Shown here in pieces: positions 7,668 to 47,952 of a stretch of DNA of 64,000 nucleotides (position 1 is its first letter; the number at the start of each line of letters is the position of its first letter). Made by a program: the position numbers and the translations under genes. The notes under the pieces were generated by a model. That model was not told where the DNA came from and ran no database searches. It was given only the letters and a program-made list of their open reading frames with translations. The DNA lies in the NCBI RefSeq assembly GCF_008327825.1, contig NZ_AP019827.1:1674001-1738000 (forward strand), given 5' to 3'. This DNA is from Leptotrichia shahii. GTDB lineage: Bacteria > Fusobacteriota > Fusobacteriia > Fusobacteriales > Leptotrichiaceae.

Positions 7668-7709
7668 GAAATAATCTAAAAAATAAGAAAATTTTTCAAG
7701 GAGAAAAAA

Positions 7710-9161
7710 ATGAAACTTTACAATACAATGACAAATAAAATTGAAGAATTTAAAACAATAGAAGAAAATAAGGTAAAAATGTATGTTTGTGGACCTACTG
7801 TCTATAATTACATACATTTGGGAAATGCACGACCGATTGTGGTGTTTGATACGTTGGCACGATATTTTAAATATAAAGGGATGGAAGTTAATTATGTACA
7901 GAATTTTACGGATGTGGATGATAAGATTATAAATAAGTCTATGGAAGAAGGGACTTCTGCGAGTGAGGTTTCGGAAAAATATATAAAATATTTTTTTGAG
8001 GATATTAGCAAGCTGAATATTCTTGAGAGTGTGAAAAGACCTAAAGTTACTGAGAATATGGCGGAAATTATTGAGATTATTCAAAAATTAATTGATAATG
8101 GGTTTGCTTACGAGAAAGATGGGGATGTCTATTTTGAGGTAAAAAAATATAAGGATTATGGGAAATTGTCAAATCAGAAAATAGAGGAGCTGGAACTTGG
8201 AGCTAGGATTGATGTTTCAGAAATCAAGAAAAATCCAGTAGACTTTGCCCTTTGGAAGAAAAAGAAGGATGGAGAGCCATTTTGGGAATCGCCTTGGGGA
8301 CAGGGACGTCCTGGATGGCATATAGAATGTAGTGCAATGGCAAAAAAATATCTTGGAGATACATTTGATATTCACGGCGGTGGACAGGATTTAGTTTTTC
8401 CGCATCACGAAAATGAGATTGCCCAAAGCAAGTGTGCTTATCACGGAAACTTTGCAAATTATTGGCTTCACAACGGATTTATTCAAATAAATGGCGACAA
8501 GATGTCAAAATCGCTAGGAAATTTCTTTTTGCTTCGTGAAATACTTGAAAAATTCTCTGGGAATGTAGTAAGACTTTTTATTCTTAGCACTCATTACAGA
8601 AAACCAATTAACTTTTCATTCGAGAATATGGAGGATACAAAAAAAGCATTGCAAAACATTGTAAAATCAATGAATAAATTTGAAGATATTGTTGAAAAAT
8701 GTAAGAATGAAAAAATAGAAAATGTTAAAATTTCAGAGTTTTCTCAAAAAATTGATGAATTTGATAAAAAATTTGAAGATGCGATGGATGAGGATATGAA
8801 CACACCGCAGGCACTAGCGACTATTTTTGATCAGATTAGGGAAACAAATAAATTTATTTCCACAAATGAAAGTGAGTTTTCCACAATTTATTATGAAATA
8901 AAAAAATCTTATGATTCTTTGAAGGCAAAAATAGAAAATGTGTTTGGAATAGCGATTGAAGCAGAAAATGCTGTGAAGGGAGAAGATGGAGAAAATATGG
9001 AATTGACAAAAAAATTAATTGAATTACTGATAAAATTGCGAAGTGAGGCAAGAAGCGAGAAAAATTTCAAATTATCTGATGAAATTCGGAATGAGTTGAA
9101 GGCACTTGGGGTAGAAATTAAGGATAATAAGGATGGAAGTACAGATTATAATTTATTGTAA
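7710..9161 (+). CDS. cysS: Cysteinyl-tRNA synthetase
   Basis: Class I aminoacyl-tRNA synthetase charging tRNA-Cys, 483 residues. Seen: N-terminal MYVCGPTVYNYIHLGNARP (zinc-ligand Cys plus the HIGH-type motif HLGN), the WHIECSAMA and HHENEIAQ zinc-site segments, and the KMSKSLGN loop near residue 264, then the DALR-type helical C-terminus. ATG preceded by AAGGAGAAAAAA. It lies 42 nt after the ptuB tail frame and 25 nt before coaBC, probably in one transcript with coaBC. Confidence 0.98.
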   Translation: MKLYNTMTNKIEEFKTIEENKVKMYVCGPTVYNYIHLGNARPIVVFDTLARYFKYKGMEVNYVQNFTDVDDKIINKSMEEGTSASEVSEKYIKYFFEDISKLNILESVKRPKVTENMAEIIEIIQKLIDNGFAYEKDGDVYFEVKKYKDYGKLSNQKIEELELGARIDVSEIKKNPVDFALWKKKKDGEPFWESPWGQGRPGWHIECSAMAKKYLGDTFDIHGGGQDLVFPHHENEIAQSKCAYHGNFANYWLHNGFIQINGDKMSKSLGNFFLLREILEKFSGNVVRLFILSTHYRKPINFSFENMEDTKKALQNIVKSMNKFEDIVEKCKNEKIENVKISEFSQKIDEFDKKFEDAMDEDMNTPQALATIFDQIRETNKFISTNESEFSTIYYEIKKSYDSLKAKIENVFGIAIEAENAVKGEDGENMELTKKLIELLIKLRSEARSEKNFKLSDEIRNELKALGVEIKDNKDGSTDYNLL

Positions 9162-28222: not shown

Positions 28223-29812
28223 TTACAACCAATCACTTCTGTACATTCTATATTCGATTTCAGGGAAAATATTATCTCTGCTTTCAATTTCACTTATCCA
28301 GCTTTCATCTAAATTGCCATTTTTGAAGTCTTCGTAAATTTTGAATAATCTGTGGATATGATCGCTTATTTTTTTATGAGCATAACCAACCATTGTTCCT
28401 GTGTACATTATAAATTCCCAACATGAAGTTTGTGCCATTAATAATTCTCTTGCGGCTTGATTTAATGCCCTGTATTCTAATTCGTTATATGGCTCTCTTC
28501 CGTTTGCTAGTTCTATCATTTTTTGTGCAGCTTTATGTAAATGTCTGTATGCATAATCATTTGAACCGTCTATCCAAACGTCATAATAACCGTTTGCTCC
28601 CCAGCTTGACATACTCACATCGACTATTTGATTTGTAGGGTATTGCTGTAAATATTTGTATGGTGTTATTGTAGAAAAATTAGATTCAGCTATTGCCCTG
28701 AATACCCATTCCAAAAATATTGGTCCTTCATACCACCAGTGTCCATATAATTCAGCATCATAAGGTGACACTACGATAGGTTTTCTATATTTCATTTTTG
28801 AAGCAAGATATTCAATCTGTTTTGAACGATTGAATACAAAGTTATAAGCATGTTCTTTTGCTCTATCTGCTGCTGCCTGCGGATTATAAACTGCTTTATA
28901 AGTTCCTTTCTTATCTGTTATTGCATGATATTTTATTCCTATGTTTCTTCTTACTCCATCACTGTGCAAGTAAGGTTTTACAAGTTCATAATCTAGTTCA
29001 TATCCTGCATCCTTATGGAATTCACGGTAAAGTCCATCTCCTGGATATCCTGATTCAGAACTCCAAACTTGTTCTGATGATTCCAAATCTCTGGCAAATG
29101 CAGCTACATAATTCTTAGTGTAGACTGGTGAATAAATACCATAAACTGGACGTGGATCACTATGCATAATTCCATGCGCATCAACTAGGAAGTATCTTAT
29201 TCCGTGTTTTTCCAAGAACTTATCTTGTCCTGGATAATAGGCACATTCAGCTAGCCAAATTCCCTTCGGATCTCTTCCAAAATTTTTAATATAATCTTTT
29301 TTTGCCATAAGCACTTGAGCATTTACTGCTTCAGGATAGTCTTTCATAACTGGCAAAAATCCATGTGTCGCTGTAACTGGAATGATTTCTAAGTTACCCT
29401 GATCTTGAAATTTTCTAAATGCCCCCACTAAATCTTTGTTGTACTTTTCTTCAAATACTTGTCTTGCTCTAGTATTGAACCATAAATTATGTTTTGCAAC
29501 ATTTAGCATGTCAGGATACGGACTTAGTCTTTCCACTTCATTTTCACAGAATTCAACTAATTTATTCATATGACGAAGATATCTTTCACGCAATAAACCA
29601 TCATTTAGCATATTTACAAGCGTTCCAGACATTGTGATAGTTATATTCCAAGGAATGTTATCTCTTGTTAAATTTTCAAACATTTCAAGTAAAGGGATAT
29701 ACGTTTCCGTAATCGCTTCATATAACCAATCTTCTTCTAAAAATTCTTTATACTCTGGATGTCTTACATACGGCAAGTGTGCATGTAAAACAAGACTAAA
29801 ATATCCATTCAT
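28223..29812 (-). CDS. Glycoside hydrolase family 57, probable 1,4-alpha-glucan branching enzyme
   Basis: 529 residues. GH57 hallmarks: HAHLPYVRHPEY at the N-terminus, GIWLAECAYYPGQDKFLEKH (nucleophile Glu in conserved region 3, residue ~190), and SPYDAELYGHWWYEGPIFLEW (region 4, acid Asp, near 350) followed by a DUF1957-like helical C-terminus (MSSWGANGYYDVWIDG, AQTSCWEFIMYTG). This set matches branching-type GH57 enzymes better than amylopullulanase, implying glycogen-like polymer synthesis. Cytoplasmic. SD GGAGG. Confidence 0.85.
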   Translation of the reverse strand: MNGYFSLVLHAHLPYVRHPEYKEFLEEDWLYEAITETYIPLLEMFENLTRDNIPWNITITMSGTLVNMLNDGLLRERYLRHMNKLVEFCENEVERLSPYPDMLNVAKHNLWFNTRARQVFEEKYNKDLVGAFRKFQDQGNLEIIPVTATHGFLPVMKDYPEAVNAQVLMAKKDYIKNFGRDPKGIWLAECAYYPGQDKFLEKHGIRYFLVDAHGIMHSDPRPVYGIYSPVYTKNYVAAFARDLESSEQVWSSESGYPGDGLYREFHKDAGYELDYELVKPYLHSDGVRRNIGIKYHAITDKKGTYKAVYNPQAAADRAKEHAYNFVFNRSKQIEYLASKMKYRKPIVVSPYDAELYGHWWYEGPIFLEWVFRAIAESNFSTITPYKYLQQYPTNQIVDVSMSSWGANGYYDVWIDGSNDYAYRHLHKAAQKMIELANGREPYNELEYRALNQAARELLMAQTSCWEFIMYTGTMVGYAHKKISDHIHRLFKIYEDFKNGNLDESWISEIESRDNIFPEIEYRMYRSDWL

Positions 29813-30093
29813 AATTTTTCCTCCATACTTTTCTAAAATTTTTTATATAATATATTTATACCATATTTTTGAAAAAATTCAAAACATTTTTATTCAAAAT
29901 CATTATATCATTTTTTCAAAAAAAATTCATAACTTACTGTGTACATTGTAAATATCAAAATTAAAAGTAATTTTTTTTATAAAATATACTCCTATACAAT
30001 ATTTCATTTATTATATTATACCTTTATGATTTCCAAATTTCAATTGATTGTTTTATTTTTTTGGATTAGAGTTCTCTTATATTGCAAATTTTT

Positions 30094-38422: not shown

Positions 38423-39262
38423 TTAAATTCCTTTTTTTGTAGATTTATGTTCAACGATGTTTTTTATAATTAAAATAAATATTGAAATCATTACCAAAAG
38501 TGAAGATACTGCAAATGCGGCTGTTATTGACTCTGATGACCCTGATAGATAAAGGGCATCAATTTCTAGCGGCAATGTGAAAGTTCCGCCTCTTGCTTTT
38601 GAAAGTGCATTTACTGCACCAAACTCTCCTAATGCTCTTGCTGTACAAAGGATTATTCCATAAAGCAATCCCCATTTTATATGTGGTAGCGTTATTTTTC
38701 TAAAAATTGTGAATCCATCTGCTCCCATCAGTGCCGCTGCTTCCTCCTCATCTTTTCCTTGAGCATTCAAAATTGGTACAATTTCTCTTGATATAAAAGG
38801 AAATGTTACAAACACCGTTGCTAAGATTACTCCTGGAATTGCAAAAACTATTTTTATATCAAGCACAAAAAATTTATTCAATGCCGTAATATAAGGTGCT
38901 GCCCAACCCATTCTTCCAAAGGTCATAATAAAGGCAAGACCTGCTATTACTGGAGAAATTGAGAAAGGAATATCTATTAACGTGGCTAGAATATGTTTTC
39001 CACGAAAAGAAAATTTTGTAAGAAGCCATGCTGCCGTTACACCAAAAAAAGTATTTATAATCAGCGCCGATATTGTTGCAACTGCTGTAACTTTCAGAGC
39101 TGAAAGGACATATCTGCTTGTCAGGCTTTTTATGTAGAATTCCCAGCCCCTTTGAAGCGAATTTACAATAATCGCAATTAACGGAAGTACAAGCATAACT
39201 CCTACAAAGACTATGCTTATTGTTATTAATACGTATTTCGCTGCACTATTTTTTTCCCCTAT
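38423..39262 (-). CDS. cysW: Sulfate ABC transporter permease CysW
   Basis: Inner-membrane permease of the CysAWTP-type importer. The first ATG (39194-39196) would cut the first membrane helix and has an SD only 2 nt away. The open frame continues upstream (GEKNSAAKYVLITISIVFVG), and a perfect AGGAGG lies 7 nt before an in-frame ATA at 39260-39262, which I take as the start (about 279 residues, family-normal). EAA loop: EEEAAALMGADGFTIFRKITLPHIKWGLLYG; GEFGAVNALSKARGG follows. Last gene of sbp-cysT-cysW, 16 nt after cysT. Confidence 0.9.
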   Translation of the reverse strand: MGEKNSAAKYVLITISIVFVGVMLVLPLIAIIVNSLQRGWEFYIKSLTSRYVLSALKVTAVATISALIINTFFGVTAAWLLTKFSFRGKHILATLIDIPFSISPVIAGLAFIMTFGRMGWAAPYITALNKFFVLDIKIVFAIPGVILATVFVTFPFISREIVPILNAQGKDEEEAAALMGADGFTIFRKITLPHIKWGLLYGIILCTARALGEFGAVNALSKARGGTFTLPLEIDALYLSGSSESITAAFAVSSLLVMISIFILIIKNIVEHKSTKKGI

Positions 39263-39278
39263 TTCATTTCCTCCTTTG

Positions 39279-40127
39279 CTAAATATTGTTTGTTCGCTTG
39301 AACTGATTCATCTGAACTAGGTTTATTAAAAATAAAAGTATGAATGAAAATATTAACATAACTAGAGCTATAACAGTTGCCGATGGATAGTCAACATAAT
39401 TTAATTTTTGCATAATTACATAAGAAATGACCTGTGTATGTTCTTTTAGGCTATTTCCTGAAATATAAATTACGCTTCCGTATTCTCCAATTCCTCTCGA
39501 AAATGCAAGTCCAAATCCTGTTAAAAGCGCAGGTCTTATTTCGGGAAAAATCACTTTCCAAAAAGTCGTTTTTTTATCTGCTCCCAAAATATATGCAGCT
39601 TCCTCATACTGATTATCCAGCTTTTCCAATATTGGCTGAACCGCCCTTACCACAAAAGGAATTCCCACAAAAATTAATGCAATTATTATTCCAATGTGAG
39701 TATATGAAATTTTTATTCCAAATTTTGCAAAATATCTTCCAACAATTCCAGTATCAGAATACATTTTTGAAAGTGTAATTCCTGCAACTGCGGTAGGCAA
39801 GGCAAAAGGTAATTCCAACATCCCGTCTAAAAACCTTTTTCCAAAAAAATCATACTTTACAAGCACCCAAGCCAAAATTACTCCAAAAACACAGTTTACA
39901 GCAGCCGCAGCAAACGAACAGGCAATACTTGTAAAAAGTGCACTTAAAACTGCCTTTTCTGTTATAAGTTGCCAAAATTCAGAAGGCGACAGCCTAAAGG
40001 AATAAACTAATACTGAAACAAGCGGTATCAGTATTAAAATTGACAACATTGCCAGTGATATTCCAAATGTCAGTCCAAAACCTGGAATCACAGTTTTTTC
40101 TTTTCTTTTTAAAGCTAATATTCTCAT
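39279..40127 (-). CDS. cysT: Sulfate ABC transporter permease CysT
   Basis: 282 residues, about six membrane segments, starting with GLTFGISLAMLSILILIPLV. The EAA loop YEEAAYILGADKKTTFWKVI followed by FPEIRPALLTGFGLAFSRGIGEYGSV is typical of CysT/CysU. Pairs with CysW to form the sulfate/thiosulfate channel; the ATPase CysA is encoded 6 kb away at 46.9 kb. SD AAAGGAG, 8-nt spacer. Confidence 0.94.
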   Translation of the reverse strand: MRILALKRKEKTVIPGFGLTFGISLAMLSILILIPLVSVLVYSFRLSPSEFWQLITEKAVLSALFTSIACSFAAAAVNCVFGVILAWVLVKYDFFGKRFLDGMLELPFALPTAVAGITLSKMYSDTGIVGRYFAKFGIKISYTHIGIIIALIFVGIPFVVRAVQPILEKLDNQYEEAAYILGADKKTTFWKVIFPEIRPALLTGFGLAFSRGIGEYGSVIYISGNSLKEHTQVISYVIMQKLNYVDYPSATVIALVMLIFSFILLFLINLVQMNQFKRTNNI

Positions 40128-40162: not shown

Positions 40163-41194
40163 TTAATTTTCATAAATTTTATCAAATAACGCACCTTCAT
40201 TGAAAAATTTCTCGTATGCTTTTTTCCAGCCACCAAAATTATCTATTTTTGTCAATTTCATCTTTAAATCAAATTTATTTCCGTATTTTTTTAGAACTTT
40301 TTGGTCATAAGGTCTGTAGCCGCTTTCAGCTATTATTTCCTGAGCTTTTTCTGAATACAAATACTTTAAATATTCTGTACTTGCTTGATAAGTCCCGTCA
40401 TCTTTTGAAATCTTATCGACAACTGCTACTGTCGGCTGAGCTAAAATGCTCACACTCGGATAAACAATTTGATATCTGTCAGGATATTCCTTAACCGTTG
40501 CAATCGCCTCATTTTCCCATGCAATTAACACATCTCCCTGATTATTTTCTACAAAAGTTGTAGTTGCTGCTCTTGCTCCTGAATCCATTACAGACACATT
40601 GTCATAAATACTCTTTACAAAACTTTTTATTTTATTTTCATCTTTTCCATATTTTTCAAGCCCATACGACCATGCTGCCAAAAAATTCCAGCAAGCTCCT
40701 CCACTACTTTTTGGATCAGGTGTTATTACTTTTACTCCTTTTTTTGCTAAATCGTTCCAATCCTTGATATTCTGTGGATTTCCTTTTCTTACGAGGAAAA
40801 CAATTGTCGAGGTATACGGAGAAGAATTGCCTGGAAATTTGCCTATCCAGCCTTTTTCAAGCAAGTCTACCTTCTCAAGAAGTGCAACATCATTTTCCAA
40901 AGCCAAAGTTACCACATCCGCATCAAGCCCTTCAATTACGGAACGTGCCTGTGAGCCTGAGCCTCCGTGTGACTGGATAATATTCACATCTTTTCCATAT
41001 TTTTGCTTGTAATATGCCTTAAACAGCCCATTATATCTCTCATATAGTTCACGGGTAGGATCATAGGAAACATTCACAATTTCCATCTTCTGCTTATTCT
41101 TCCCAATTTTGCTGCTTTGCCTTGCAATTCCTATAAAATAAAGCAAAATTACAATTATAGCTAATATTGCTGGTACTTTCAATTTTTTTAGCAT
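40163..41194 (-). CDS. sbp: Sulfate-binding protein of the ABC importer
   Basis: About 343 residues from the ATG preceded by AAAGGAGAAGGGAAAT; a longer frame to 41257 lacks an SD. N-terminal hydrophobic segment (KVPAILAIIVILLYFIGIARQ) without a lipobox Cys, so it may be an uncleaved anchor or signal peptide. Sulfate-site motifs: IVNVSYDPTRELYERYN, QSHGGSGSQARSVIEGLDAD, TPDPKSSGGACWNFLAAW and LIAWENEA. First gene of the sbp-cysT-cysW transcript. Confidence 0.94.
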   Translation of the reverse strand: MLKKLKVPAILAIIVILLYFIGIARQSSKIGKNKQKMEIVNVSYDPTRELYERYNGLFKAYYKQKYGKDVNIIQSHGGSGSQARSVIEGLDADVVTLALENDVALLEKVDLLEKGWIGKFPGNSSPYTSTIVFLVRKGNPQNIKDWNDLAKKGVKVITPDPKSSGGACWNFLAAWSYGLEKYGKDENKIKSFVKSIYDNVSVMDSGARAATTTFVENNQGDVLIAWENEAIATVKEYPDRYQIVYPSVSILAQPTVAVVDKISKDDGTYQASTEYLKYLYSEKAQEIIAESGYRPYDQKVLKKYGNKFDLKMKLTKIDNFGGWKKAYEKFFNEGALFDKIYEN

Positions 41195-41216
41195 ATTTCC
41201 CTTCTCCTTTCCCTTT

Positions 41217-41330
41217 TTATACTTGAACCCACTCAAAATTGAACTCTTAAAAATCATATAAATTTAGGATTTGAGTAAAATAATTATAATTTTTGAGTTA
41301 GGTTTTAAAATAGTTTTACTATACAACCGT
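41217..41330 (+). repeat. Dispersed repeat, left half (R1-B), upstream of sbp
   Basis: Matches R1-A (minus strand) over ~110 bases. AACCCACTCAAAA near the start pairs with TTTTGAGTTAGGTT near the end, so the unit could fold into one long hairpin. It overlaps the leader of sbp. Confidence 0.6.
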
Positions 41331-41393: not shown

Positions 41394-43079
41394 TTAAATT
41401 ACGTAAAAACTATCTCCACTTACTATTCTTCTATAAGTTTCAAATCTTGCCCATTTTTTATGAATTTCCACTTTATTTATATTTCGATTGTAATCTAAAA
41501 GATAATTTTTCATATCTTCTCTAGTTTTAATCTGTAATCCAAATCCTGCTTCGTCTAGCACTGGAAGCCCTGTAAAATGATAATCTTCTAATCTCACAAT
41601 ATCAAAAATCTTACGATCCCTAACTAACACTGCCGCTTCACTTTCAAGTGAAATAATGTCAAAATATTGCGGATACTCAAAGCTATCTCCCTTTTGAGGC
41701 ACAATGTCGCCTACATGATACGTTTTTTCTCCTGTTTCTTCTTTAGACATTCTTGCATTTTCAAAATCAAAATACAATTCCTCAAAAATATATCCGCCAA
41801 TTTTTATATCATCTTTTTCAAAATATGGTTTTTCTCCAGTCGTATCAATATTTTCCACTACTCCCGCAGCAGCTGTTTGATGAGAGAGTCTGTCAATTAA
41901 TATCAATTCTCCCAAAGTCTTATTTTTCTTAAATAAATCAACAATAACTTTATCTGAAAATTCAATTTTACAAAGAGCAATTTCATTTTTCACAATACTT
42001 TGCATTTCGATTTTTTCTCCAGTATTTACATCAATTTTATAAACAATTTCCTTCAATATTGCAGGAAGTTTCTTCGTTCCAAGTTTTGCCAAATATTCTT
42101 TTCCAACAATTAATTTATCATCGTCCATCCACAATAATGCGGCTTCAATTGATTTTGCAACTGAAAGATTTTTGTTTTTCGTGATAACAGAACCACGACT
42201 CACATCTACTTCCTTGTCCAGCTGAATTGTAACAGCCTGTCCAGAAAATGCCTCTTCTACATTCCTATCCCCATTCAAAATCGTTTTCACAGTCGCAGTT
42301 TCATTACTTGGCAACACAACAATTTCTTCTCCAACTTTTATAAAACCACTTTCAATTTGCCCTTGAAATCCTCTAAATTCATGATTTGGACGGCAAACTC
42401 TTTGAATCGGTACATAAAAATCAGAATTTTTAGTATCTTCTGTCACATCAACTGTTTCTAAATATTCGATAATGCTTTCTTCCTTATACCAAGGCATATT
42501 TTCTGATTTTTTAGTAACATTATCTCCTTCAGTTGCACTCACAGGAATTATTTTTATATTTTCCAATTCCAATTCTTTTGCCAATTCCTTTACTTCATTG
42601 ACAATTTTATTAAATTTCTCTTCGCTATAATTTGCTAAATCCATTTTATTTACTGCAAAAACGAAATGACGTATTCCGACCATTGAGCAAATTCTTGCGT
42701 GTCTTCTAGTTTGAACAAGTACACCTTTTGTAACATCTAAAAGCAAAATTGCAACTTCGGCAAATGAAGCTCCAACCGCCATATTTCTTGTATATTCTTC
42801 ATGACCTGGCGTATCAGCCACAATAAAGCTACGTTTATTTGTAGTAAAATAACGATAAGCTACATCAATCGTGATTCCTTGTTCTCTTTCAGCCATCAAT
42901 CCATCTAAAAGTAGCGAATAATCAATCGCTCCTCCACGTGATCCAACTTTACTATCTAAAATCAATGCTTCCTCTTGATCTGCATAAAGCAATTTTGAGT
43001 TATAAAGAATATTTCCAATCAATGTTGATTTTCCATCATCCACACTTCCACAAGTAATAAATTTTAATAATCTCACCAT
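41394..43079 (-). CDS. cysN: Sulfate adenylyltransferase subunit 1 (GTPase)
   Basis: 561 residues. EF-Tu-like GTPase: ITCGSVDDGKSTLIGNILY (P-loop, 10-20), ADTPGHEEYTRNMAVGASFA, FAVNKMDLANYS; then beta-barrel domains (RPNHEFRGFQGQIESGFIKVG). With CysD it makes adenylylsulfate (APS) from sulfate and ATP, driven by GTP hydrolysis. The C-terminal ~90 residues exceed the usual CysN and have no P-loop, so there is no fused APS kinase. Overlaps the cysD stop by 1-3 nt (coupled translation). Confidence 0.95.
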   Translation of the reverse strand: MVRLLKFITCGSVDDGKSTLIGNILYNSKLLYADQEEALILDSKVGSRGGAIDYSLLLDGLMAEREQGITIDVAYRYFTTNKRSFIVADTPGHEEYTRNMAVGASFAEVAILLLDVTKGVLVQTRRHARICSMVGIRHFVFAVNKMDLANYSEEKFNKIVNEVKELAKELELENIKIIPVSATEGDNVTKKSENMPWYKEESIIEYLETVDVTEDTKNSDFYVPIQRVCRPNHEFRGFQGQIESGFIKVGEEIVVLPSNETATVKTILNGDRNVEEAFSGQAVTIQLDKEVDVSRGSVITKNKNLSVAKSIEAALLWMDDDKLIVGKEYLAKLGTKKLPAILKEIVYKIDVNTGEKIEMQSIVKNEIALCKIEFSDKVIVDLFKKNKTLGELILIDRLSHQTAAAGVVENIDTTGEKPYFEKDDIKIGGYIFEELYFDFENARMSKEETGEKTYHVGDIVPQKGDSFEYPQYFDIISLESEAAVLVRDRKIFDIVRLEDYHFTGLPVLDEAGFGLQIKTREDMKNYLLDYNRNINKVEIHKKWARFETYRRIVSGDSFYVI

Positions 43080-43981
43080 TAAAAATACCCCTCTCTTTTT
43101 CTTTTTTCCATGCTTGCTGCCCCACTATCTCTATCGATAACTCTACTTGTACGCTCAGATTCAACTGAACTCAATGTTTCATCAATTATTTCCTCCAAAG
43201 TTACAGCATCTGATTCCACAGCCCCAGACAATGGATAATCTCCTAGAGTTCTAAAACGAACCATTTTAATTTCAGGCTCTTCGCCTTCTTCCAATCGCAT
43301 TCTTTCATCATCAACCATGATTAAATTTCCATCCCTTTCCACAACAGGACGTTCTGCGGCCGAATAAAGTGAAACAATTGGTATATTCTCCCTTTGAATA
43401 TACTCCCAAATATCCTTTTCAGTCCAGTTGGAAATTGGGAAAACTCTAATACTTTCACCTTTACTAATCTCTGTATTGTAAAGTTTCCACATTTCTGGAC
43501 GTTGATTTTTGGGATCCCATGCTTGTGCTGCATTTCTAAATGAGAAAATTCTTTCTTTAGCACGACTTTTTTCCTCATCTCTACGACCTCCGCCAAATGC
43601 CGCAGTAAATCCATATTTATTAAGTGCCTGTTTCAACGCTTGTGTTTTCATAATATCTGTAAATGAAGAGCCATGATCAAATGGATTAATATTTTTTTCA
43701 ACTCCTTCAGGATTGATATATTCAATCATTTCAATTCCAAGTTCTTTCGCCCTTTTATCACGAAAATTAATCATTTCCTTAAATTTCCAACCAGTATTCA
43801 CATGTAGAAATGGAAAAGGCGGTCTTTCAGGATAAAACGCCTTCATTGCCAAATGTAACATAACCGAGCTATCCTTTCCAATTGAATAAAGCATAACAGG
43901 ATTTTCACATTCAGCCGCAACTTCCCGAATAATATATATCGCCTCCGCTTCCAATTCATCTAAATGAGATAATTCATTCAT
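43079..43981 (-). CDS. cysD: Sulfate adenylyltransferase subunit 2
   Basis: About 300 residues from the Met of [20 protein letters not shown] (SD AAAGGGTGAT; the frame extends to 44068 without an SD). PAPS-reductase/ATP-pyrophosphatase fold with PP-loop [48 protein letters not shown] and the RP..W.lyN.....[14 protein letters not shown] block. Adenylylates sulfate together with CysN. Confidence 0.97.
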
Positions 43982-44156
43982 ATTATAAATCACCCTTTCT
44001 TTTTTTATTTTTTCAAACTTATGAATAAAAAAATTTAATATATTATATTTTTCTATATTATTACACATTACATTTGTACAGTCAAGTGTATATACAATTT
44101 ATTTTTAATTTGTGATAAAAATATTTTTTACATCAAACTAATTTGTTTAAAAAAAA

Positions 44157-44520: not shown

Positions 44521-44850
44521 TCAATATTTATTTGCATCTTTCCTATTTATATCAATTTCTTCCACAGTTCCGTCCCTTTTTTCAATAATCCATTTCAGAA
44601 CATCTCCTTCTTCCTTAGTCGTCATCGTACTTCCATTCCCTCCAATATCTGCCCCAAGAAAAAACGAAATTGCCTGAACCGGACATTCCTTTACACAAGA
44701 AACACAGCCCCAGCAGTCTTTTGGATACTGCATAACCGCCTTTTCGATTTTCATGTCATCCACTTTCTGCATTTCAATCAAAGTCCCCGGACACACCAAC
44801 GTACATTTTGTACATCCTATACACACATACGGATCAATTACTATGCTCAT
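44521..44850 (-). CDS. aprB: Adenylylsulfate reductase beta subunit-like ferredoxin
   Basis: 109 residues from the ATG with AAGGAGGAGAAAT. Two [4Fe-4S] motifs: CIGCTKCTLVCPG and CWGCVSCVKECPV, then a C-terminal tail that resembles AprB (wraps around AprA). Overlaps the aprA stop by 17 nt. Supplies electrons to AprA for reduction of APS to sulfite and AMP. Assigned as AprB by context with aprA, cysN and cysD. Confidence 0.85.
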   Translation of the reverse strand: MSIVIDPYVCIGCTKCTLVCPGTLIEMQKVDDMKIEKAVMQYPKDCWGCVSCVKECPVQAISFFLGADIGGNGSTMTTKEEGDVLKWIIEKRDGTVEEIDINRKDANKY

Positions 44851-46582
44851 ATTTCTCCTCCTTAACAATTTCCCTCATAAATACTTCCAGTTCTCCATCA
44901 ACTAATCTTGAATTCACATATTTAAAGTAATTTTCATCAGTTTCAGGATAATCCAGATTCTCATTAAACGAACGCCATCTCGTTTCCTTCCTGAAAAAAA
45001 GATGCCCAATTAGTGATTTACACACTATCAATCTCTCTTTTAGCTCATAAGCAAACATTAAATCATGCATATTATCTGCCGAAAGCTCATCAGAAAGCTC
45101 TATAAGCTGATCAATTTTCTGTTTTGCCAAATTTAGCTGCTTTTCATTAAATTGATAGTTTGTAGAGATTCCACCTGCATATTCATCCATAATTTTTTGC
45201 ATTCCTTCTTCCATATCTTCCGTTGAAAATCTTTTGGCTTCTGTATTTCTTATTTTTTCATACTGATTAATAATTTGATTCTTTTGTTCATTCAAGAAGT
45301 TTTCCACATTTTCATAAATTTTTCCACAATTAATATTTTTTTCATCAGCTAACTTTGAAATTATGTCAAGCGCCGCAATTTCCCCTTCAGCCAATGCACC
45401 TGTAACATATTTCTGTGGACAGCCTCCAGCTACATCTCCAGCCGCATAAAGTCCATTAATTGTAGTTTCTCTATTCGTATTTACCCAAAAGCCGCTTGCG
45501 GTATGCCCACCGACAATATACGGCTCTGTCCCTTCAATTTCAACATCTTGCTCATTTGGATTTTTTCCACTTTCAATCCACTTCAATGTTTGACTCGGTG
45601 CCATATTTAAATATGCTTTCAACAAACTATCGCTTTCATCTTCACTAATTCCACTCGTCTTCAAATAACAGGGTCCATTCCCAAGTTGATTTTCCCTCAC
45701 AGTTCCATAAACACGCTCACTCGTTGTAAGCCCGTATTTATCCTCATAAACAACTCCTTTTGAATTTATTTGCTTCGCTCCAACTCCCTGAGCAATCGTT
45801 CCAACTGGTGCAATTGTGTCCTTACATCTCAAAGCAATAAATCTCATCTCAAAAGTTGTCATTTCTGCTCCAGCTAAAATTCCCATCGCATATCCTGCCC
45901 CAGTATTAAATGGTGGATACCACATCTTATGCCGTGAAAATCCAGGATTATTAGGCTTATAAAGTCCAGCCGCTCCTCCAGTTGAAATTATTACTTTTTT
46001 CGCTCTAATTACAAAAGCCTCCTCTTTTTTTATAGAAAATCCAACTGCCCCATAAACTTTCCCATCTTTCACAAGCAAATCCGTAATATTAAGTGTATTC
46101 AGAACTCTCACATTTTTTGTCTTTTTCACAGCATCAGCAAGTATCGGCTTGAAATTTTCTCCATTTATTTTTATATTTCTATTTCCACGTGCAACATACT
46201 CTCCATTCTCATCTTTCAAAATCACAAGCCCCAGCTTTTCCACTTCAGTGGTAATCTCATTAAATCTATTCGCAGCAGTAATTAACAAATCGTGCCGTAC
46301 AATTCCATTGGCATCCTTTGCCGCATAATCCACATAATCCTGTGGCACACGTCCTTTCACATTATACGCATTTATTGCATTAATCCCAGCCGCAAGACAC
46401 CCGCTCCTCTTAATATTCGCCTTCTCTGCTACAATTACCGATAAATCAGAATTTTTTCCAAGCGTAATCGCCGCATAACATCCAGCAGTTCCCCCACCAA
46501 TAATTAATACATCCGTTTCCAATTCCTTTATTTTAAGTTTTTTTCTTTCCTTATTATTTTTATCATCCTTATTCTCTGCCAT
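44834..46582 (-). CDS. aprA: Adenylylsulfate reductase alpha subunit-like flavoprotein
   Basis: About 582 residues from the ATG of MAENKDDKNNKERKK (SD AGAGGT; the frame extends to 46630). FAD fold of the fumarate reductase/AprA superfamily: DVLIIGGGTAGCYAAITLG, KRSGCLAAGINAINAY (AprA-type rather than fumarate-reductase signature), ISTGGAAGLYKPNNPGFSRH, MWYPPFNTGAGYAMGILAGAEM, and GGHTASGFWVNTNRETTING then LYAAGDVAGGCPQKYVTGAL. Reduces APS to sulfite with AprB. It sits in a gene set with sulfate importer, CysDN and siroheme sulfite reductase, so an assimilatory role is likely. AprA assignment rests on motifs plus context. Confidence 0.87.
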   Translation of the reverse strand: MAENKDDKNNKERKKLKIKELETDVLIIGGGTAGCYAAITLGKNSDLSVIVAEKANIKRSGCLAAGINAINAYNVKGRVPQDYVDYAAKDANGIVRHDLLITAANRFNEITTEVEKLGLVILKDENGEYVARGNRNIKINGENFKPILADAVKKTKNVRVLNTLNITDLLVKDGKVYGAVGFSIKKEEAFVIRAKKVIISTGGAAGLYKPNNPGFSRHKMWYPPFNTGAGYAMGILAGAEMTTFEMRFIALRCKDTIAPVGTIAQGVGAKQINSKGVVYEDKYGLTTSERVYGTVRENQLGNGPCYLKTSGISEDESDSLLKAYLNMAPSQTLKWIESGKNPNEQDVEIEGTEPYIVGGHTASGFWVNTNRETTINGLYAAGDVAGGCPQKYVTGALAEGEIAALDIISKLADEKNINCGKIYENVENFLNEQKNQIINQYEKIRNTEAKRFSTEDMEEGMQKIMDEYAGGISTNYQFNEKQLNLAKQKIDQLIELSDELSADNMHDLMFAYELKERLIVCKSLIGHLFFRKETRWRSFNENLDYPETDENYFKYVNSRLVDGELEVFMREIVKEEKYEHSN

Positions 46583-46739
46583 AAAATTACCTCTTTTATT
46601 AATTTTAATGATATTAACTACTCCATTCAATACTATTAAACTATATTATTTTTCTTTTTTTATTTATCAATATTTTACTTTAAAATCTTTTTAATTAAAT
46701 TAATTTTCATAATTAAAAATGCTTAGACAAGCCGGGTTT

Positions 46740-46887: not shown

Positions 46888-47952
46888 TTAAATAACAACA
46901 TCATTTTGATTTCTTGTATTTGCATTTTCCACAATTTCCACTTCCTCATTTTTCCCAAAAACATAGGCACGATATATGTAAATATTGACTTCTTCTCCTA
47001 CAGATACCGTATCTTCTTCTATTTTTCTGTTTCCTTTTATCAAAATTCCGTTTATTCTTACGCCAATTTCTACTTCTTTTCCACGAAATAAAGTGTATTC
47101 AACAATTCCAGTTTCTGTTGAGGCTGAGTATCTAAATTTTTCATTTGATTTTATAATACTTACATTTTCAGGGCGAATGATTGCTTTCTGACTATTTTCT
47201 AAATTTTCAAAACCTTTAAATTTGTTTATATTTTCCAGTTCTATTGGATTTCCCATGAATTTTGCTACAAATGCAGTTTTAGGATTGGCATAGATTTCCT
47301 TTGGACTCCCAATTTGCTCGATTTTTCCCTTATTTGTTACAATGATTTCATCTGCCACTTCTATTGCCTCTTCCTGATCGTGTGTTACAAAAATGCTTGT
47401 AATACCCACTTTGTCAATTGTTTCCCGTAGCCAGTTCCTAAGTTCCTGTCTGACTTTAGCATCAATTGCAGCAAAAGGCTCGTCAAGCAACAATATTTCA
47501 GGATTTGGAGCCAACGCCCTTGCAAAAGCTACTCTTTGTCGCTGTCCCCCTGAAAGCTGATTTGGATATCGTTTCCCAAGCCCTTCAATATTTACAAGTT
47601 CCATCAATTTCTCCACTCGCTCTTTAATGACAGACTTTTTTTCTTTTGCAATTTTCAACCCAAAAGCAATATTGTCAAAAACCGTCATATAACGAAACAA
47701 CGCATAATTTTGAAAAACAAAACCAATCCCTCTTTTACTAGGCGAAACATCATTCACGACTTTTCCGTCAATCACAATTTCCCCAGAATCAGGCGTTTCT
47801 AATCCCGCAATCATTCGTAAAATTGTAGATTTTCCACTTCCCGAAGGTCCTAATAACGCCACTAATTTTCCTTTTTTTATTCCTAAATTGATATTATTTG
47901 ACGCTTTATAATCATTATACATCTTATTTATATTCTTTAATTCAACATACAT
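46888..47952 (-). CDS. cysA: Sulfate ABC transporter ATPase CysA
   Basis: 354 residues. Walker A LLGPSGSGKST (34-43), Q-loop FVFQNYALFRYMTVFDNIAFG, signature LSGGQRQRVAFARAL, Walker B ILLLDEPFAAIDA, H-loop FVTHDQEEAI; C-terminal TOBE-like domain (RPENVSIIKSNEKF ...). The FRYMTVFDNIAFGL variant is the one usual for CysA. Partner of CysT/CysW encoded 6-8 kb downstream. Follows the sulfite reductase gene by 23 nt. Confidence 0.93.
   Translation of the reverse strand: MYVELKNINKMYNDYKASNNINLGIKKGKLVALLGPSGSGKSTILRMIAGLETPDSGEIVIDGKVVNDVSPSKRGIGFVFQNYALFRYMTVFDNIAFGLKIAKEKKSVIKERVEKLMELVNIEGLGKRYPNQLSGGQRQRVAFARALAPNPEILLLDEPFAAIDAKVRQELRNWLRETIDKVGITSIFVTHDQEEAIEVADEIIVTNKGKIEQIGSPKEIYANPKTAFVAKFMGNPIELENINKFKGFENLENSQKAIIRPENVSIIKSNEKFRYSASTETGIVEYTLFRGKEVEIGVRINGILIKGNRKIEEDTVSVGEEVNIYIYRAYVFGKNEEVEIVENANTRNQNDVVI

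Follow-up and report, generated by a model that had tools for sequence, protein, structure and literature searches.

A probable AUA start codon of the sulfate permease gene cysW in Leptotrichia shahii

In the window, the 64,000-nt stretch of contig NZ_AP019827.1 analysed here, an assimilation cluster of Leptotrichia shahii that looks intact ends with the gene cysW. The cluster runs in the order sulfite-reductase-like gene, cysA, aprA, aprB, cysD, cysN, the gene of a sulfate-binding protein, cysT and cysW. On the minus strand we found the cysA-type ATPase (46888..47952; TIGR00968, 362 bits against a cut-off of 342.75), cysD (43079..44068; TIGR02039, 482.1 bits), cysN (41394..43079; TIGR02034, 531.8 bits), the sulfate-binding protein (40163..41257; TIGR00971, 380.4 bits) and the permease partner cysT (39279..40127; TIGR02139, 345.5 bits, cut-off 246.1). 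The aprB- and aprA-type genes (APS reductase) lie in positions 44521-46630, beside cysD, cysN and the sulfite-reductase-like gene, and the cluster is apparently assimilatory.

Read from an ATA codon, cysW occupies positions 38423..39262 of the minus strand (279 codons and a stop) and codes for a sulfate ABC transporter permease subunit. Its product scored 254.1 bits with TIGR00969, the model of the sulfate permease subfamily, above the cut-off of 240. The best model was TIGR02140 (CysW), with 295.4 bits, a score under the equivalog cut-off of 329.1, and the name CysW was assigned from this best model together with the place of the gene after cysT.

Along the minus strand, the stop codon TAG of cysT (39281-39279) is followed by a C, the Shine-Dalgarno (SD) sequence AAAGGAGG (39277-39270), the letters AAATGAA and the ATA (39262-39260); the cysT stop is 16 nt ahead of the ATA. 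The initial annotation had placed a perfect AGGAGG 7 nt before this ATA, and a reading of the minus strand confirmed both the coordinates and the spacer. The cysW frame, claimed to stay open upstream of 39196, indeed reaches back to 39307, next to the preceding stop (39310-39308), and runs on to the stop at 38423. Direct reading found no ATG, GTG or TTG in this frame between the stop at 39310-39308 and ATG 39196, which bears out the narrower claim made for the interval from the SD to this ATG. Further near-cognate codons upstream in the open frame, ATC 39307 and ATA 39286, are both within cysT. The first in-frame ATG is, as had been stated, the one at 39194..39196 (minus strand, codon 23 counted from the ATA), with an SD, AGGAG, 2 nt away. 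The 19-residue average of hydrophobicity of the product is maximal at residues 13-31, a part of which would be removed by a start at 39196. We also read from the sequence, out of the cysW frame, a mini-ORF ATG AAA TAG (39259..39267, minus strand), with its TAG overlapping the ATA; it was absent from the congener start regions examined.

For a comparison with relatives, cysW was searched for in 13 genomes of the genus, the present one included: nine carry the gene and four had no match. Leptotrichia sp. oral taxon 879 F0557 (L021) was left out of the count, since it shares its start region with L006 and the two are probably one genome. In seven of the eight congeners carrying cysW (L004-L010), ATG stands opposite the ATA in the alignment, while the eighth (L011) has an ATG one codon upstream of that position; in a family-level MAG (L040) the ATG is situated four codons upstream. 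The ATA is private to this genome, with an AUA start shared by none of the eight congeners. Opposite ATG 39196, all eight have an internal Met within the first membrane helix, in line with the earlier remark that a start there would cut into this helix. The starts of close relatives had been named in the initial annotation as a check on its proposal that cysW likely starts at AUA, and their aligned ATG, along with the lack of another standard start, supports that interpretation, the translation start itself being predicted.

The alignment of the start regions was ungapped against three of four congeners (G002, G001 and G011), the fourth (G012) lacking two bases of the spacer. Therefore, a G to A substitution at the third codon position is the simplest history, rather than an indel. 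The codons beside the start have diverged as well, reading GGG GAA here and GAT AAA in the relatives. When the starts of 35 frames of the window were compared with those in up to five congeners, using the congener stretches around their own cysW, only cysW was short against every congener compared (five of five). The other flagged frames were 7680-9161, against one of two congeners, and 28223-29842, against one of four. With the relatives as a guide, the ancestral cysW start falls at this codon.

The 16S rRNA 3' end of this genome is GGATCACCTCCTTTCT, with which AAAGGAGG pairs by eight contiguous matches at a duplex energy of -12.4 kcal/mol, compared to -6.8 kcal/mol for the AGGAG of the rival ATG 39196. 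Thus cysW has what is seen at natural bacterial AUA starts, a strong SD at proper spacing ahead of the AUA. The RNA around the start is unstructured (fold z 0.67). The start-proximal extension of the SD known from S. aureus is absent at cysW, which has GGAGGAA instead of GGAGGTG and an extension on the far side; the SD of infC in Leptotrichia, unlike that of cysW, has the start-proximal GGAGGTG match. We rejected the idea of an SD strengthened in compensation for a weak codon, as five close congeners started by ATG have energies from -9.4 to -14.9 kcal/mol. A tRNA scan of sampled stretches of the genome gave nothing bearing on the cysW start.

The pattern AAGGAGG-N5-9-ATA has 37 matches genome-wide, and four of them (cysW, L174, L190 and L204) open a frame of at least 60 codons at the ATA. 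In L174 an in-frame ATG comes two codons after the ATA, in L190 ATG is the next codon, and in L204 the ATA sits 84 codons into an open frame. Among the 37 matches, only cysW opens a long frame without lying in mid-frame and without a standard start one or two codons on. The combination of SD and ATA at cysW is not due to chance.

A second gene with a conserved ATA is infC, coding for initiation factor IF3. All 13 genomes of the genus (the present one and 12 congeners, loci L123-L134) carry infC with an in-frame ATA behind TTAGGAGGTG; the locus of the genome under study is L121 (G000:C1:1309726-1310229, minus strand). The infC frame, preceded by TTAG or CTAG, opens right after the stop as GAG GTG TTT/TTC TTT ATA AGA GGA/GGG. 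The sole GTG at this 5' end belongs to the Shine-Dalgarno sequence AGGAGGTG, and the ATA follows AGGAGG by 8 nt. No ATG was found at a usable place in any of the 13 genomes: the first 30 residues hold no Met codon in the present genome and in L123, and elsewhere the MNERIR motif contains the next ATG. Throughout the genus, this ATA appears to serve as the start of infC. At the order level, Leptotrichiaceae have ATA (L156-L159, L161, L166) or ATT (L169), and ATT is at the corresponding place in L162, L163, L165 and L170 (a tally made without L155, L160, L164, L167, L168 and L171). IF3 autoregulation through a near-cognate start may extend to this phylum. The conserved ATA of infC in the genus and the published AUA starts of S. 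aureus make AUA initiation at cysW plausible.

Given all this, cysW is probably translated from the AUA at 39262-39260. The explanation that we prefer, and hold to be rather better than an even bet, is a lineage-specific change of ATG to ATA in which the old site retained weak initiation. The ancestral ATG would have become ATA in this lineage, and the long SD AAAGGAGG with its 7-nt spacer would hold the 30S subunit over the AUA. Ribosomes finishing cysT would stop 16 nt upstream and thereby help initiation at the old place; since cysT ends at this distance from the ATA much as it does in close congeners, translational coupling of cysT and cysW is likely. The fMet-tRNA would pair with AUA with a mismatch at the third position, so initiation should be weaker than from AUG and is expected to be sensitive to IF3. 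We thus infer a translation start at the AUA that is reduced in strength, coupled to cysT and responsive to IF3.

The largest doubts about this explanation are a truncated start and a miscalled base. Under the former, which we consider unlikely, cysW would now start at ATG 39196 and make a CysW devoid of the cytosolic tail and of part of membrane helix 1, and the upstream codons would be a decaying leader. This ATG is the first standard start in the frame and has AGGAG nearby; yet the spacing of that SD is 2 nt, its pairing is the weaker one, the Met is internal in all the congeners, and the strong SD at 39277-39270 would then serve nothing.

The pattern of evolution of cysW bears on the truncated start in both directions. 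For the whole gene against the nearest congener, dN was 0.044 and dS 0.58 (dN/dS 0.08). We observed 13 residues of CysW private to the window, 12 of which fall in codons 2-61 (39080..39259, minus strand), with a chance of 5e-8 if they were evenly spread. The ratio of private nonsynonymous to synonymous changes was 12:6 in codons 2-61 compared to 1:29 in codons 62-276 (Fisher p 3e-6). In the nearest congener the two parts did not differ in this way (2:7 and 3:23, p 0.59). As codon 61 was picked as the boundary after inspection of the data, the p-values of the N-terminal contrast are somewhat too good. Private synonymous codons were not denser at the N-terminus (6 in 60 vs 29 in 215). Such a concentration of private residues with no rise in synonymous changes indicates that the constraint on codons 2-61 fell or shifted. 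The permease core thus stayed under strong selection, and the changes came in the tail, in helix 1 and in the loop behind it; this unevenness argues against both a long-dead gene and an import of diverged DNA. Identity to four aligned congeners falls at 39300-39001. Recombination with a distant donor for this divergent 5' part was not favoured, because private synonymous changes show no increase in it.

Seven of the 13 private residues fall in codons 2-22, which would be untranslated with a start at 39196, but others are found beyond that ATG, at residues 38-61. CysW is matched by the nearest solved permeases only from residue 16-17 onwards, and TIGR02141, the molybdate-permease model, begins to match at residue 62, so that helix 1 is perhaps less essential. 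Codons 9-22 stay open with as few amino acid changes in 17% of neutral simulations, and in 6.5% the replacements are, in addition, all hydrophobic or small; by composition alone, 21 codons free of stops have a chance of 0.12. With such values the test is weak and cannot show that coding was kept in codons 9-22. Overall, the N-terminal pattern would fit a relaxed or altered demand under weak initiation as well as a truncated start.

The second doubt is an error in the sequence: if position 39260 were misread, the actual codon would be ATG and cysW would have a normal start. The ATA rests on one genome, and one miscalled base would give the same picture, the whole finding being a one-base difference from the ATG of relatives; a scan of viral contigs turned up no other strain, and one of genome contigs gave no record closer to this genome. 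We regard an error as quite unlikely. The genome is assembled in two contigs and is 99.96% complete; a plasmid search with the second contig returned seven records, all from Leptotrichia. None of the 93 congener frames matched at an identity of at least 60% was split over two frames of the window, so that nothing points to numerous indel errors in the assembly here; this count probes indels, not substitutions. Also, the divergence of the adjoining codons means that the site is not identical to the relatives save for one base.

A bolder extension of the preferred explanation is that selection favoured the AUA of cysW as a weak start, tying sulfate uptake to the level of IF3 and joining infC in this respect, with the N-terminus reshaped concurrently. 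We think it doubtful; if true, cysW translation, like that of infC, would rise when IF3 discrimination falls.

It is also improbable that the ATA is real but recent and damaging, leaving an isolate that makes little or no CysW. Such a lesion would agree with the presence of ATA in no relative and with the expression from non-canonical starts in S. aureus reporters, about 10% of that from AUG (PMC13009471). Nevertheless, cysW is otherwise free of lesions, its neighbour genes are intact, and codons 62-276 were under strong selection along this branch. A route in which ribosomes start at ATG 39267, translate ATG-AAA-TAG to its end and return to the cysW frame at the overlapping ATA, through reinitiation or a -1 slip, is highly improbable, even though TAG and ATA overlap as ATAG, an arrangement resembling coupled stop-start overlaps: only 2 nt separate the SD core from ATG 39267, the mini-ORF is missing in relatives, and AAA-TAG is not known as a slippery site. 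A fusion of cysT and cysW by a +1 shift, suggested by the frame open to 39307 inside cysT, was rejected, as a stop interrupts that stretch in G012 (L004), the nearest congener, and ATT-TAG-C is not known to act as a shift site.

The cysW gene is a further case of an already known, rare kind of start, not of a new kind. In E. coli, infC and pcnB start at AUU, and the weak start has a known role, infC being kept weak by IF3. These starts share with cysW a near-cognate codon differing at the third position, although the codon is AUU there and not AUA. AUA has been counted among rare starts (PMC9094748), and IF3 was reported to speed dissociation of non-canonical complexes (PMC8266586). In S. aureus, AUA starts were described for infC, where ribosome mapping has shown it, ccpN and citZ; ccpN reached up to 30% of AUG expression in rich medium (PMC13009471). 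The AUA of infC and ccpN stands, like that of cysW, behind a strong SD at proper spacing; the ccpN start, however, is conserved and regulatory, whereas the AUA of cysW is private and predicted from sequence (PMC13009471). Also similar is citZ, a metabolic gene whose AUA start is confined to a single lineage and conserved among strains of that lineage, NCTC 8325; its start was shown by ribosome mapping and reporters, while cysW is known from the sequence of one genome of another phylum (PMC13009471).

Lineage-specific start switches, in which an ancestral AUG is substituted among close relatives as in cysW, have been surveyed for 61,358 ancestral AUG starts, with 363 switches to GUG, 113 to UUG, two to CUG and one to AUU; unlike cysW, none of the switches given in the available portion of that source leads to AUA, which is not mentioned there (PMC5622118). 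Our literature search returned no report of AUA starts in Leptotrichia or in cysW. Gene callers miss AUA starts and few are proven in bacteria; the change at cysW can be placed against close relatives. Together with the conserved infC of the same genome, cysW offers a clean test of AUA initiation and IF3 control beyond the well-studied phyla.

In 464 kb of this genome (the window and 20 further stretches), we also surveyed the frames of 120 codons or more, 358 in all. A near-cognate codon behind an SD core was present ahead of the first standard start in four of them: cysW, the only one with an SD-led ATA, and three frames with ATT. Two of these ATT cases are alike frames on the plus strand (L141:4172-4807 and 8697-9152), with no standard start for 78-105 codons; they look transposase-like by eye and may each be the second frame of an insertion sequence, produced through frameshifting. 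In the third (L151:6026-6949, minus strand), an SD-led ATT precedes the first standard start by five codons, leaving the start of that frame ambiguous.
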